Assembly: GCA_021413625.1 (NCBI GenBank)
Contig: JAIOPY010000027.1
Location: 1 to 15,564 of the forward strand
DNA length: 15,564 bases
Direction: 5' to 3'
Source of the DNA: Candidatus Nomurabacteria bacterium
GTDB taxonomy: Bacteria; Patescibacteriota; Minisyncoccia; Phycocordibacterales; UBA9973
A program made the position numbers and the translations under genes. Position 1 is the first letter of the stretch. Every line of letters starts with the position of its first letter. The notes beneath the pieces were generated by a model. The model had not been told where the DNA came from and did not search any database. It was given only the letters and a program-made list of their open reading frames with translations. Shown piece by piece: positions 2,729 to 8,751 of the stretch.

Positions 2729-2757
2729 ATTATACAAAACTATTTTTTAGCTTTCAA
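2729..2757 (-). promoter_or_regulatory. khpA promoter inside the end of rpsP
   Basis: TTGAAA (2757-2752), a 17-base spacer and TATAAT (2734-2729) on the minus strand give a near-consensus sigma-70 promoter. The -35 is in the last rpsP codons. The start site would be near 2722, leaving a leader of about 60 bases. Confidence 0.65.
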
Positions 2758-3048
2758 CTCTTTTCTCTTAACAGTTGGGGTTTTTTTAGGTAATACGTTG
2801 ATTTTCTTACCTGTTAGAACCTTTTCATGCACTAGAAAATTATGCATTGTATCTGAAAGCTTTGCGCCCTTACTAAGCCAGTGCTTAATTCTATCATCCG
2901 CAAAAACTTTAGCTCCAGCTTTAGGATTATAAGTTCCAAGAATTTCTAAAAATCTTCCACTTTTAGTGCTATTTTTTGAATCGGTCAAAACGGCACGGAA
3001 GGATGGGTCGTTCTTTCTACCTATTCTTTGTAATCTAATTTTTAACAT
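2740..3048 (-). CDS. rpsP: 30S ribosomal protein S16
   Basis: S16 is a component of the small ribosomal subunit that helps assemble the 16S rRNA 5' domain. The product is 102 residues. It begins MLKIRLQRIGRKNDPSFRAV, the typical MVKIRLxRxGxKxxPxYRxV signature, continues with FLEILGTYNPK (33-43) and IKHWLSKGAKLSDTMHNFL (54-72), and ends in a lysine-rich tail. Length and order are normal for the family. It heads the rpsP-khpA pair. No Shine-Dalgarno is present. A possible extended -10 lies 9 bases upstream of the ATG. Upstream is the terminator of the foreign lipoprotein unit, so transcription of rpsP is insulated from it. Confidence 0.97.
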   Translation of the reverse strand: MLKIRLQRIGRKNDPSFRAVLTDSKNSTKSGRFLEILGTYNPKAGAKVFADDRIKHWLSKGAKLSDTMHNFLVHEKVLTGKKINVLPKKTPTVKRKELKAKK

Positions 3049-3085: not shown

Positions 3086-3117
3086 ACTGTATAAAAAATT
3101 ACTGACTAGAAATAGAA

Positions 3118-3155
3118 AAGGCGTCGGGCACCTTTTCAAAAGTGCTAGACGCCTT
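3118..3155 (-). terminator. Rho-independent terminator of the lipoprotein unit
   Basis: AAGGCGTC (3118-3125) pairs with GACGCCTT (3148-3155). After a 2x2 internal loop, GCAC (3128-3131) pairs with GTGC (3142-3145). On the minus strand it is followed by TTTTCTATTT. It closes the foreign unit just upstream of the rpsP promoter. Confidence 0.85.
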
Positions 3156-3168
3156 ACTGATTTATATT

Positions 3169-3187
3169 CCGAACCCCGACGGTTCGG
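3169..3187 (-). repeat. Perfect hairpin in the lipoprotein 3' UTR
   Basis: CCGAACC (3169-3175) and GGTTCGG (3181-3187) form a perfect 7-bp stem with a 5-base loop, between the stop codon and the terminator. It has no U-run and is not itself a terminator. Confidence 0.7.
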
Positions 3188-3191
3188 TGTT

Positions 3192-3209
3192 GTCCCGCCG
3201 AGGCGGAAC
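3192..3209 (-). repeat. GC-rich hairpin just after the lipoprotein stop codon
   Basis: CCGC (3195-3198) pairs with GCGG (3203-3206) around CGAG, extended outward past one mismatch by GT/AC. It holds the 12-base string CGCCTCGGCGGG (minus strand 3205-3194) that also forms the core of the terminator at 1622-1651. Confidence 0.5.
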
Positions 3210-3215
3210 GAAGAG

Positions 3216-3878
3216 CTAGTTGCCACCCGGACGGTTGGTGCCGCCAGGGGTGTTGATGACCGGAGCGTTGCCGCATCCGGGACACGAGGTGTTCGCACCA
3301 CCGGGGCTGGTAATGGTGGGTGCCGACCCGCCAGTTCCAAATCCGGTATTCGTGCCGCCAGGACCGGTCGTGATGGTCGTGGTCATCCCCGAGATGACGT
3401 TCGTGCCACCACGGCTCCCGATGGGATACTGCGGACCGCAGCCACCACCAGGACAGGAGGTGGGACCATAGCTGACGTTGTAGCCGCCACTTCCGCCGTA
3501 ACCGCCACCCGAGATGGTGACGCCGCCGCCGTAGACGGGACCCATGACGTAGCCTCCACCGAGGAGGCCACCGTGATGGTGAACCGTTGACGCCGCGGCT
3601 TCCGCGGTCTTGATGGAGCGATTCTCCTCCGACTTCACGCCGACGATGCAGGTGTCGCGCTTGGACTCGTCGTCCAAGTTCGCACACTCCATCGCGGACT
3701 TGACGAGGAGGTCATTCGGACGCGCGCCCTTGGCGAGCGTCTTGCCGGTGCTCGCACAACCGGTGCTGAGTACGGCGAGGATGATGACTGCGGCCACAAT
3801 GACCAACGTCCACACCCAACGCTTAACCGACGACTTCCGTTCCGGGGTCGCTTCTTCGCGACCCAAAATGCTGTTCAT
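3216..3878 (-). CDS. GC-rich, Gly-rich putative lipoprotein of foreign composition
   Basis: I do not recognise this protein. From the ATG at 3878 it is 220 residues: a charged N-terminus (EEATPERKSSVKR, 9-21), one hydrophobic segment (about 21-37, VWTLVIVAAVIILAVL), then STGC with Cys41, a weak lipobox (Ser at -3). Next is a short acidic region (about 55-95) with two cysteines, then a tail of over 100 residues that is very rich in Gly, Thr and Asn, with a HHHGG stretch, two SCPG motifs and repeated PGG(T/A)N units. It would sit outside the cell, anchored in the membrane. A TTG at 3896 extends the frame, but GGAG lies 8 bases before the ATG, making 3878 the better start. Codon use is foreign: 29 of 32 codons at residues 55-86 end in G or C, while neighbours are AT-rich. 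Promoter, Shine-Dalgarno and terminator are all intact. Function unknown. Confidence 0.85.
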   Translation of the reverse strand: MNSILGREEATPERKSSVKRWVWTLVIVAAVIILAVLSTGCASTGKTLAKGARPNDLLVKSAMECANLDDESKRDTCIVGVKSEENRSIKTAEAAASTVHHHGGLLGGGYVMGPVYGGGVTISGGGYGGSGGYNVSYGPTSCPGGGCGPQYPIGSRGGTNVISGMTTTITTGPGGTNTGFGTGGSAPTITSPGGANTSCPGCGNAPVINTPGGTNRPGGN

Positions 3879-3886
3879 GACTATTC

Positions 3887-3890
3887 TCCG
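3887..3890 (-). promoter_or_regulatory. Shine-Dalgarno of the lipoprotein gene
   Basis: GGAG on the minus strand, 8 bases before the ATG at 3878. It decides the start against the in-frame TTG at 3896. It is the clearest ribosome binding site in the window; nearly all neighbours have none. Confidence 0.7.
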
Positions 3891-3894
3891 TTTC

Positions 3895-3912
3895 AAGGGG
3901 GCGTCCCCCCTT
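3895..3912 (-). promoter_or_regulatory. Stable leader hairpin just upstream of the Shine-Dalgarno
   Basis: AAGGGGG (plus strand 3895-3901) pairs perfectly with CCCCCTT (3906-3912) around a 4-base loop. In the minus-strand transcript it ends 4 bases before GGAG. It could shape access to the ribosome binding site or stabilise the leader; no ligand or regulator is implied by the sequence. Confidence 0.55.
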
Positions 3913-3950
3913 AGGTTGACGAGGATTCCCCGAACATATCCAACAATACA

Positions 3951-3979
3951 AGTATAGCATATTTTGCCCCTATTGTCAA
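3951..3979 (-). promoter_or_regulatory. Promoter of the lipoprotein unit
   Basis: Minus strand: perfect TTGACA (3979-3974), 17-base spacer ending in TGC, TATACT (3956-3951). Start near 3944, leader about 65 bases. It shares 5 bases of its -35 with the opposed rnr promoter. Confidence 0.8.
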
Positions 3980-3987
3980 TATAGGGG
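3967..3987. promoter_or_regulatory. Palindrome between the divergent promoters, candidate operator
   Basis: CCCCTAT (3967-3973), 7 bases, ATAGGGG (3981-3987): a perfect 7-bp inverted repeat centred on the shared -35 boxes. A dimeric regulator bound here would cover both -35 elements. Flanking TATAGCAT (3953-3960) and ATGCTATA (3992-3999) make the whole region nearly mirror-symmetric. No candidate regulator gene is adjacent. Confidence 0.5.
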
Positions 3988-4001
3988 TTTCATGCTATAT
4001 T
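3973..4001 (+). promoter_or_regulatory. Promoter of rnr, leaderless
   Basis: Plus strand: TTGTCA (3973-3978), 17-base spacer ending in TGC, TATATT (3996-4001). Six bases later is the GTG at 4008, so the mRNA would begin at or beside the start codon. Confidence 0.75.
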
Positions 4002-4007
4002 TAAAGG

Positions 4008-5936
4008 GTGAAAAATAAACTAGAAGGCATAATTTCCATCTCCTCTAAAGGCACAGGTTATGTGGCATCAGGGGCTGAAAAGAATAAGGGTCAAGACCCT
4101 GAAATTGATTTCCGGCATTTAAACACTGCCCTGCATGGTGACGTGGTAGAAATAATCCTTCACCCAAAAGGCAAAGGGCGTCAAACAGCTGAAGTTTCAA
4201 AAATAATTACTAGAGCTAAAATGGCTTTTGTGGGAGTGCTGGAAAAAGAAAATGAAAGATTCTTTTTAAAGCCAGATGATACAAAAATGTATACCGATAT
4301 TTTAATATCGGAAAAATTATTGAATGGGGCTAAAGCTGGGCAAAAAGTTTTCGGTGAAATAACTTCTTGGAAAGATAGAAATAAAATGCCGGAAGGAAAA
4401 ATAATAAAAGTTTTAGGTATGCCTGGCGATAATAATACTGAAATGCATGCCATCGCCATGGAAAAAGGTTTTGAAGGAGAATTCTCAAAAGAAGTTGAGA
4501 ACGAAGCAAAAAAAATAAAACAAAATGGAATTACAAAAGAAGATTATAAGGACCGCAAAGATTTTAGAGAAATTTTAACTTTTACTATAGACCCTTATGA
4601 CGCCAAAGATTTTGACGACGCAATTTCATTTAGAGAAATAGATAAAAATACTTATGAAGTAGGCATACACATTGCAGATGTGTCCCATTATGTAAAAATT
4701 GGTAGCGAGCTTGACCGTGAAGCGAAGAAACGTGGCACTTCTGTTTATTTAGTTGACCGAACCATTCCTATGTTGCCCGAAACACTTTCTAATGATTTAT
4801 GCTCCTTAGTCCCCCATAAAGATAGATTAACAATGAGCGCAGTTTTAACTTTAGACAAAGAAGCGAGAGTTTTGAGTCAATGGTTTGGTAAAACAATAAT
4901 TCATTCTCAAAAAAGATTTACTTATGAGGAGGCGGAAGAATCAATTAAAAAATCTACCGCTCCTCTACACAAAGAACTTTTTATTTTAAATACTTTAGCT
5001 AAAAAGTTAACTAAAGAACGTTTTGCAAAGGGAGCAATATCTTTAGACCAAGAAGAAGTAAAATTTGTTTTAGACAAAGATGGTGTGCCAATAAAAGTTA
5101 TTAAAAAAGAACGTGGTGACTCCAATCGTTTGATAGAAGAATTCATGCTCTTGGCTAATAAAAAAGTAGCAGAAGTAATGTCACCAAAGAAAAAAGGCTC
5201 CTCTTCCCCGCTCTTAGACAACGTATTTATTTACCGCATCCATGACCTGCCAAATAAAGAAAAAATGGCTGATTTATCTTTCTTCCTGCGGAGCTTGGGA
5301 CATAAAGTATCTCTACAAGATGGACTCATACCTGCCCACCAAATAAACAAACTCCTAGAAAGCCTGTCTGGTAAAAATGAAAAAGACACAGTGCACCGCG
5401 CTGTTATTCGTTCAATGGCAAAAGCAATTTATTCAACTAAAAATATCGGACATTATGGCTTAGCTTTTGAATACTACACTCACTTCACTTCTCCGATACG
5501 AAGATATCCAGACGTAATAGTGCATAGACTTTTGTCACTACAGTTAGCAAACAAAACTATAAAGAAAGAAAACTTACACGAATATGAAAAAATTTCACTA
5601 ACAGCATCCGAACAAGAAAAAAGAGCATCCGATGCAGAGCGAGCTTCTATCAAATACAAACAAGTGGAATATATGAGTAAAAGAATTGGGCAAAGCTTTG
5701 AAGGCATAATTTCGGGAATTACCGAATGGGGTGTTTATGTAGAAGAAGTAGGCACAAAGTGCGAAGGTTTGGTGCGAGTTAGAGATATCAGTGATGATTT
5801 TTATATTTTTAACGAAAAGAAAATGGAACTGCTGGGAGAAAAGAAAAAGAAACGTTACCGTTTGGGCGACAAAGTTAAAATAAAAGTTAAAGGGGTTGAT
5901 TTGGAAAGAAAAACAATAGATTATGTATTAGTATGA
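4008..5936 (+). CDS. rnr: Ribonuclease R (RNase II/R family 3'-5' exoribonuclease)
   Basis: RNase R degrades RNA processively from the 3' end and can pass through structure, serving mRNA decay and rRNA quality control. The 642 residues hold cold-shock-type domains (about 5-70 and 72-140), the RNB catalytic domain with its metal-binding aspartates in DPYDAKDFDDA (D195, D201, D203, D204), HIADVSHYV (221-229), the long SVYLVDRTIPMLPETLSNDL signature, YTHFTSPIRRYPDVIVHR near residue 490, and a C-terminal S1 domain (about 560-642) starting GQSFEGIISGITEWGVYV. E. coli RNase R has 813 residues; the N-terminal helix-turn-helix and the basic C-terminal tail are absent here. The start is GTG, chosen because the cold-shock domain begins at once and a promoter lies 6 bases upstream. 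Its TGA overlaps the next ATG (ATGA), so the two genes are translationally coupled. Confidence 0.96.
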   Translation: MKNKLEGIISISSKGTGYVASGAEKNKGQDPEIDFRHLNTALHGDVVEIILHPKGKGRQTAEVSKIITRAKMAFVGVLEKENERFFLKPDDTKMYTDILISEKLLNGAKAGQKVFGEITSWKDRNKMPEGKIIKVLGMPGDNNTEMHAIAMEKGFEGEFSKEVENEAKKIKQNGITKEDYKDRKDFREILTFTIDPYDAKDFDDAISFREIDKNTYEVGIHIADVSHYVKIGSELDREAKKRGTSVYLVDRTIPMLPETLSNDLCSLVPHKDRLTMSAVLTLDKEARVLSQWFGKTIIHSQKRFTYEEAEESIKKSTAPLHKELFILNTLAKKLTKERFAKGAISLDQEEVKFVLDKDGVPIKVIKKERGDSNRLIEEFMLLANKKVAEVMSPKKKGSSSPLLDNVFIYRIHDLPNKEKMADLSFFLRSLGHKVSLQDGLIPAHQINKLLESLSGKNEKDTVHRAVIRSMAKAIYSTKNIGHYGLAFEYYTHFTSPIRRYPDVIVHRLLSLQLANKTIKKENLHEYEKISLTASEQEKRASDAERASIKYKQVEYMSKRIGQSFEGIISGITEWGVYVEEVGTKCEGLVRVRDISDDFYIFNEKKMELLGEKKKKRYRLGDKVKIKVKGVDLERKTIDYVLV

Positions 5937-7857: not shown

Positions 7858-8751
7858 ATGGATAAAAACAGACAAGGAGAAATTTTTATTTTAGCAGGAG
7901 CTTTCTTTTGGGGCTTGTTTCCAGTTATCACAATATTGTCGCTAAATAATTTACCTCCATTAATGTCTTTAGCATGGAGTACTTTATTTGCTTCCATATT
8001 TTTTGCCATAATTATAACCATAAAGAAAAACTGGAAAGAATTAAAAAACAAGTCAGCATTAAAAGATATGGTATGGGTTACATTTATAACCAGTATTCTA
8101 TTTTATGTTTTATTTTTTTCTGGTTTATCACACACTAATGCTGGTAATGCTAGTATAATTGCTTTAACAGAAGTATTTTTTAGTTTTTTACTATTCCATA
8201 TTTGGTATAAAAATTATATATCTAGAGAACATATTGCGGGAGCATGCTTAATGCTACTAGGTGCTTTTATTGTTTTATATCCCAACTTCACGGAATTCAA
8301 AATTGGTGACATTTTAATTCTATCTGCAGCTTTTGTAGCGCCTCTTGGTAATTTCTTTCAACAAAGAGCTCGCACAAAAGTAAGCAGTGAAACTGTTTTG
8401 TTTGTCCGTAGCGCGTTAGCAACACCATTTTTATTCGCCATAGCTTATATTTTTCATCAATCATCTTCTATGATGGATTTAAAACAATCTCTTTTTTTAG
8501 TTTTAATAAATGGATTTATAATACTAGGTCTTTCAAAAATATTTTGGATTGAAGGCATTCATAGAATTAGTGTCACCAAAGCTAATGCTCTCTCTAGTGT
8601 CAATCCGCTTCTAACATTAATATTTGCTTGGATTTTATTAAATGATATTCCAACTGTCTGGCAGTTGTTTGCACTTATTCCCATGAGTTTAGGGGTAATT
8701 CTATTGGGAATAAATAAAAAATCTACCCCAGAAGAAATACAAGTGGTTTAA
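7858..8751 (+). CDS. EamA/DMT-family membrane transporter
   Basis: A 297-residue integral membrane protein with about ten hydrophobic helices in two similar halves, the layout of drug/metabolite transporters (EamA repeats). The first half opens with GEIFILAGAFFWGLFPVI (7-24), and each half closes with a glycine-rich helix: HIAGACLMLLGAFIVLY near 125 and QLFALIPMSLGVILLGIN near 270. The motif NASIIALTEVFFSFLL (103-118) and its counterpart ANALSSVNPLLTLIFAWILL are typical of the family. It exports or imports small metabolites across the cell membrane; the substrate cannot be told. It lies 26 bases after the carboxypeptidase-CapA gene on the same strand and ends directly against the convergent smc remnant, with no visible terminator between. 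Confidence 0.92.
   Translation: MDKNRQGEIFILAGAFFWGLFPVITILSLNNLPPLMSLAWSTLFASIFFAIIITIKKNWKELKNKSALKDMVWVTFITSILFYVLFFSGLSHTNAGNASIIALTEVFFSFLLFHIWYKNYISREHIAGACLMLLGAFIVLYPNFTEFKIGDILILSAAFVAPLGNFFQQRARTKVSSETVLFVRSALATPFLFAIAYIFHQSSSMMDLKQSLFLVLINGFIILGLSKIFWIEGIHRISVTKANALSSVNPLLTLIFAWILLNDIPTVWQLFALIPMSLGVILLGINKKSTPEEIQVV

Follow-up and report, generated by a model that had tools for sequence, protein, structure and literature searches.

The window analysed here is a 15,564-bp stretch of DNA, contig 16 of an assembly of 527 kb (94% complete) from a Candidatus Nomurabacteria-type genome of the Patescibacteria with 36% GC; as judged by rpsP, the closest named relatives are Candidatus Nomurabacteria (Patescibacteria/Paceibacterota). 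A gene of 220 codons encoding a protein of exported type is located at 3219..3878 on the minus strand (ATG at 3878, stop codon TAG at 3216-3218). It is bordered downstream by rpsP (2740..3048, minus strand) and upstream by rnr (4008..5936, plus strand, GTG start), both of which, like other genes without a library match, were named by reading. The gene has a GC content of 0.64 and a GC3 of 0.75, compared with GC3 values of 0.21-0.34 in 14 neighbouring genes of the window. A GC content of 0.64 was reached by none of 2,895 windows of 660 bp drawn from the readable ones among the 60 other contigs of the same genome (mean 0.359, sd 0.038, z 7.4), and codon use was unlike that of resident genes. The counts that had led the initial annotation to describe a GC-rich gene of foreign codon use were reproduced exactly: G+C made up 40 of 60 positions at 3541-3600 and 16 of 60 at 8041-8100, and G or C was the last base of 29 of 32 codons across residues 55-86.

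Expression signals around the cassette

The gene is placed between the divergent promoters of rnr and rpsP and is equipped with signals of its own. A promoter scan identified TTGACA-17-TATACT on the minus strand at 3951..3979, which matches the consensus at 11 of 12 positions and has an extended -10 element (TG before the hexamer); three promoter-like sites were found in the region versus 0.7 in shuffled sequences. The rnr promoter, TTGTCA-17-TATATT, lies on the plus strand at 3973..4001, and the -35 boxes of these two divergent promoters overlap back to back at 3973-3979, so that the two genes may compete for polymerase. The Shine-Dalgarno (SD) core GGAG at 3886..3889 (minus strand) gave a pairing energy of -8.9 kcal/mol, whereas the best of 15 other start sites in the window, representing 13 genes, gave -4.4 kcal/mol, which bears out its earlier description as the clearest SD in a window where neighbouring genes have none. 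An intrinsic terminator hairpin with a T-rich tail at 3115..3155 (minus strand) was identified by scanning and folding (-21.6 kcal/mol, z -4.6); since a simple terminator scan of the region returned two hits versus 1.4 in shuffles, the scan by itself is no proof. A hairpin is also present in the leader before the SD (3895..3912, minus strand), but does not rise above shuffles of the leader on folding (z -0.4). The promoter, SD and terminator previously credited to the gene are all present. A search of the window against Rfam gave no match of use.

A -10 hexamer right before the start codon is a mark of leaderless mRNA. The cassette does not look leaderless, since it has the SD described above, its promoter lies 73 nt before the start, and the -10-like element just before the start is a weak 4-of-6 match (GAGAAT). 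These data support the view of a self-contained expression unit in which a host-type promoter is joined to a coding region of foreign codon style.

A variable slot between rpsP and rnr

Of the 80 genomes of the genus, 74 yielded rpsP, and 69 rpsP sites were analysed, the other five being cut or less than 200 bp from a contig end. The space between rpsP and rnr was empty at 34 of these sites and occupied at 25, while for 10 no state was assigned because no rnr was detected next to rpsP or the contig end was reached. In empty slots the rnr-rpsP gap is shorter than 200 bp and holds both divergent promoters; occupied slots measure 392-1,959 bp, with the additional sequence placed between the two promoters. 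Variability of the rpsP|rnr slot extends across the genus, a feature that the initial annotation missed; with 34 of 69 sites empty, it is not the case that every relative has the same gene here with matching codon use.

As judged by hydropathy and reading, 24 of the 25 occupants are of exported or anchored type and lie on the rpsP strand, the exception (genome G025) resembling a toxin-antitoxin pair. Twelve occupants are GC-rich, with ORF GC of 0.53-0.68 and GC3 of 0.60-0.78 save for locus L042 (GC3 0.40). A further 11 are AT-rich, comprising six Tyr/Gly/Asn repeat proteins and five anchored proteins of KGFIGLG type, and the remaining two are of other types; the AT-rich class includes L009 and L069 (ORF GC 0.40 and 0.44), although their inserts are 0.06 above the flanks. 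A thirteenth GC-rich gene, in genome G082, is located upstream of rpsP, its contig ending before rnr is reached. The slot cassettes have promoter DNA in common with each other and with the AT-rich occupants, and 3' DNA is common to three of them.

A tree of rnr plus rpsP from 59 genomes placed GC-rich occupancy in 12 rows with 12 changes, close to the shuffled mean of 11.0. Conversely, the KGFIGLG group was clustered, with three changes (2 of 500 shuffles as low). Resolution of the tree is weak, with 29 of 56 inner branches open and the starred branches forcing only two changes for the GC-rich group, and gains are therefore not separable from losses.

A family profile built from four slot proteins (the window protein and those of G001, G077 and G030) matched 6 of the 80 genomes, the additional two being G082, with its gene upstream of rpsP, and G020, in which the rpsP|rnr slot is empty and the family member lies on another contig beside a transposase-like gene. 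When the search was extended to the 297 genomes of the order, one further match was obtained, in a genome of another family, between pilB-like and tsaE-like genes and again in a GC-rich patch. Features common to the slot family are two cysteines, an Ala/Glu-rich stretch and a Gly/Tyr-rich end. Presence among relatives is thus patchy. DNA and protein searches of phages and plasmids gave no match, nor did searches of viral and genome contigs; neither a donor nor a close outside homologue was found in these collections, and no insertion edge or vehicle was found.

The predicted product

The protein has a hydrophobic segment at residues 22-41 (3756..3815, minus strand) that ends in a lipobox-like LSTGC (Cys41), the two cysteines conserved in the slot family at residues 65 and 77 (3648..3686, minus strand), and a Gly-rich C-terminal tail at residues 100-220 (3219..3581, minus strand; pLDDT below 50 in a low-confidence model). 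The SCPG and PGGTN repeats that had been noted are present in two copies each. An AlphaFold model of low confidence (mean pLDDT 48) predicts a helix at residues 16-37 and more helices to residue 101, with the rest disordered, and is too poor at this pLDDT for a fold search. The protein had been called unlike anything known, and indeed family libraries and solved structures supplied no relative: the best Pfam match (E 0.33) was below the cut-off, NCBIfam and PHROGs gave no match, and solved structures returned antibody light chains alone, at E values of 0.24 and above. The slot relative in G030 scored 28.5 bits (E 1.8e-6) against the GrrA/OscA1 family of Gly-rich RiPP precursors (TIGR04260). 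However, this is under the curated cut-off of 31 bits and the window protein has no NCBIfam match, and a reading of the product as a RiPP precursor was rejected.

The gene had been annotated as encoding a lipoprotein. In common with bacterial lipoproteins of the Lgt/LspA pathway, the protein carries a lipobox-like LSTGC after a hydrophobic segment, which was recognised in pattern tests, although position -3, usually Leu in lipoboxes, is Ser. By a stricter test a lipobox was present in only 2 of 451 ORFs of the same genome, namely the cassette gene and a membrane protein, and in 1 of 885 ORFs sampled from four other genomes; among slot occupants, one test detected it in 7 of 13 GC-rich genes versus none of 11 AT-rich ones. 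Unlike the situation in organisms that make lipoproteins by this pathway, neither Lgt nor LspA was found in the cassette's own genome (94% complete). Among 80 genomes of the genus, LspA was detected in none and Lgt in one. In control searches LspA was positive in 10 of 14 genomes and Lgt in 9 of 14; the Lgt search missed Bacillus subtilis, which has the enzyme, and so is imperfect. The single genome with an Lgt match was G014 (locus L298), in which LspA was not found. The lipobox is present, but the near-absence of LspA and Lgt from the genus makes the lipoprotein assignment doubtful. More likely is a surface protein that is anchored in the membrane and bears a disordered Gly-rich tail, probably held in its own cell by the hydrophobic segment, and the lipobox may be a trace of a lipoprotein-making donor.

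Cassettes and slots elsewhere

A survey of 366 kb of the same genome identified 27 stretches with a GC content of 51% or more, 14 of which, including that of the window, hold an accepted gene. Of those left out, six are intergenic without a trusted ORF (L078, L083, L085, L089, L096 and L111 2621-3000), and seven lie inside genes or RNAs or at contig ends. The 14 genes have GC3 values of 0.63-0.82 and mostly unrelated products, among them a glycosyltransferase, an HTH_17 protein, weak matches to M48 and DUF218, and several without an assigned family. The format is common to all, consisting of an untranslated leader, an SD, a GC-rich ORF and usually a terminator; most have an SD and a GC-rich hairpin by reading, and a coding-strand promoter matching at 10 or more of 12 positions was detected for only 7 of the 14. 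Two such cassettes stand in tandem beside lysS (L075 660-1760), and a 73-bp terminator-like repeat comes after each, its copies being 93% alike. Further GC-rich cassettes in the same genome, at L310 3133-4341 and L320 2475-3092, encode larger exported-looking proteins of about 403 and 205 aa. By reading, the number of such cassettes in 180-200 kb samples of four other genomes ranges between none (G003) and about six (G096).

A second variable slot lies at the rplB|rpsS junction, where a gap of 255-2,189 bp was measured in 24 of 27 junctions (27 of 28 measured junctions are included here, and 6 of 34 were not measurable). Its contents, named by reading, include small, often basic GC-rich ORFs, toxin-antitoxin-like pairs and a GIY-YIG-like gene. 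A third slot, beside an aspS-like gene, holds one family in 7 of 80 genomes, in place in all seven, with gene GC ranging from about 0.44 to 0.69; the proteins (L260-L266) are small and Cys-containing (pattern LTVP..LPCG), sometimes apparently in two copies.

Two styles of codon use and translation start

Mean GC3 was 0.72 for the 13 other cassettes of the genome, 0.70 for 10 GC-rich slot genes of other genomes and 0.26 for residents. Codon use of the two GC-rich groups was closely correlated (r 0.93), whereas against resident genes r was -0.08 for own cassettes and -0.03 for slot genes; the likeness between cassettes arises partly because their GC3 is equal, and the comparison left out the slot genes L042 (GC3 0.40) and L035 (51 aa).

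Translation starts were compared with a mechanical rule, in which the first ATG or GTG of each ORF was required to show anti-SD pairing of -8 kcal/mol or better. The resident set comprised 155 genes that were 150 codons or longer and had 45 nt of free DNA upstream, and the 12 GC-rich slot genes comprised 11 from the slot as counted above plus that of G082. The rule was passed by 12 of 14 own cassettes and 7 of 12 GC-rich slot genes, versus none of 11 AT-rich slot genes and 3 of 155 residents. Taking the best of the first four starts, the same energy was attained by 13 of 14, 11 of 12, 1 of 11 and 27 of 155, respectively. With starts chosen by eye, an SD motif preceded 14 of 14 own cassettes and 12 of 12 GC-rich slot genes, compared with means of 7.8 and 6.3 in shuffled upstream regions, and the corresponding energies were -10.2 and -10.3 kcal/mol versus -6.0 and -5.3; the starts of the own cassettes were picked by eye with the SD in view, and the mechanical rule is the more trustworthy. 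A -10 hexamer ending 4-11 nt before the start was present in 103 of 155 residents, as opposed to 45 of 155 at a control offset, and in 8 of 11 AT-rich versus 0 of 12 GC-rich slot genes; the one instance among the 14 own cassettes is the weak element of the window gene. Resident genes are AT-rich and devoid of SDs, and most of them look leaderless.

In a later sample of 129 kb the rule was passed by 3 of 89 resident ORFs. Of the three gene islands in this sample, L310 passes at the first start and L299 only at the second, while at L320 the rule took the wrong ORF and an SD-preceded ORF was seen by eye. The 3' end of 16S rRNA had no match in 298 loci, and Rfam detected no rRNA on 19 of 23 later contigs, so that the host anti-SD was not seen.

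Origin and possible role of the cassette

The cassette gene bears two marks of horizontal acquisition, namely odd composition with odd codon use and patchy presence, which stand beside its format, the variability of the slot and the near-absence of LspA and Lgt from the genus. We lean towards the interpretation that it belongs to a group of self-contained one-gene cassettes which this Nomurabacteria genome acquired, perhaps derived from a GC-rich, lipoprotein-making source. A single isolated import was rejected in view of the many similar cassettes in the same genome. The initial annotation, which proposed a recently acquired lipoprotein gene, is upheld in part: acquisition is favoured, but its recency is a weak point, given related GC-rich genes in the same slot of relatives and at two other sites, and the lipoprotein assignment is another.

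The main alternative is that the locus is native, vertically inherited and fast-evolving, encoding surface proteins whose GC-rich codons and SD are kept by selection, for instance for strong SD-driven expression, with absences representing losses. Conservation of slot and strand, the exported type of 24 of 25 occupants and the occurrence of GC-rich slot genes in hosts of differing GC are all in keeping with descent in place. So too are the promoter layout common to GC-rich and AT-rich occupants, the 3' DNA common to three genomes and the persistence of the aspS-side family at one site in 7 of 7 genomes, and these same observations weigh against acquisition, as do the failure to find a donor, vehicle or insertion edge, the weak resolution of the tree, the -10 match of at least 10 of 12 in only half of the own cassettes (7 of 14), and a codon likeness that stems partly from equal GC3 with two slot genes left out. 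Nevertheless, we consider a native locus unlikely, since the same style is seen in unrelated genes elsewhere while AT-rich occupants of the very slot lack it, GC-rich occupancy is scattered on the tree, the family also occupies two other sites, and a lipobox is present although LspA was undetected in the genus.

It is improbable that the gene arrived as cargo of a phage, plasmid or integron-like element that still moves it. The single-gene units, some in tandem with the 73-bp repeat after each, and the transposase-like neighbour in G020 would suit such an element, but phages, plasmids and viral contigs gave no match, no integrase was seen by eye among the window ORFs, and the cassettes have no end sequences in common beyond promoters and some 3' DNA. 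The sharp composition edges might suggest a chimeric join or contamination in the assembly, but this was rejected as highly improbable, since the junction also holds GC-rich genes in several further genomes of the genus, whose relatives were mostly assembled by other groups and come from other places, and since the unit has a host-type promoter and terminator and many counterparts in its own genome.

If the gene was indeed acquired, a unit comprising a host-type promoter, an SD leader, a GC-rich ORF and usually an intrinsic terminator would have come to occupy the space separating the divergent rnr and rpsP promoters, a slot left empty in many genomes of the genus and filled elsewhere by various exported-protein genes. 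Transcription from the extended -10 promoter would yield a short leadered mRNA ending at 3115-3155, from which SD-driven translation would produce a protein anchored in the membrane, its flexible Gly-rich tail lying outside the cell. Expression is probably steady; the product is probably inserted via its N-terminal hydrophobic segment and retained in the membrane, and its surface part would consist of a short two-cysteine helical portion and the disordered Gly-rich tail. Contact with other cells is perhaps its role, which would fit the generally held host dependence of the lineage; members of the Patescibacteria are tiny, for the most part uncultured, and thought to rely on other cells.

A broader proposal, which can be advanced only tentatively, is that portable one-gene cassettes of a single expression format, with host-type promoter, SD leader, GC-rich coding style and terminator, form a standing pool among Nomurabacteria and their kin, moving among them and inserting into fixed intergenic slots in genomes whose own genes start without an SD, such that these genomes use two translation-start dialects. 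The existence of GC-rich genes in a differing genetic style hints at such a pool of plug-in genes. If the acquired class is recognisable by GC3, SD leader and terminator, the imports of a genome could be listed directly, and several cassettes encode exported-looking proteins. That cassettes are SD-led while residents lack SDs and appear leaderless bears on translation start in an AT-rich reduced genome and on how newcomer genes stay expressed. The lipobox, in a genus in which LspA went undetected, may give a hint of the donor.

Patescibacteria have been reported to acquire single genes and islands, mostly exchanged among Patescibacteria (PMC12455944). Like the present cassettes, those genes were gained singly into small genomes; unlike them, in the part of that report available, they show no GC-rich SD-led format and no fixed slots between housekeeping promoters, and the same part makes no mention of hotspot, lipoprotein or intergenic. 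Recently acquired bacterial genes have been described as tending towards high AT content (PMC4450053, citing Daubin and Ochman 2004), and those treated in the accessible portion of that article resemble the cassettes in being short, lineage-restricted and of odd composition; the cassettes, being GC-rich in an AT-rich genome, depart in the opposite direction. A term search of PMC11665869 turned up nothing on leaderless genes or lipoproteins. The open-licence literature searched held no description of such cassettes, which are not claimed here to be unpublished.

Some minor observations were made in the course of reading these loci. In the rplB|rpsS junctions read (L093 2470-3030 in the own genome and L267-L296), rpsS keeps its own promoter and leader hairpin. 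Rfam identified a group I intron in the own genome at L302 6425-6737. Lastly, MITE-like stretches with ends resembling CCCGTTAGAGAT / ATCTCTAACGGG were seen by eye in the rpsP|rnr slots L010, L032, L038 and L070, and also in the rplB|rpsS slot L292.
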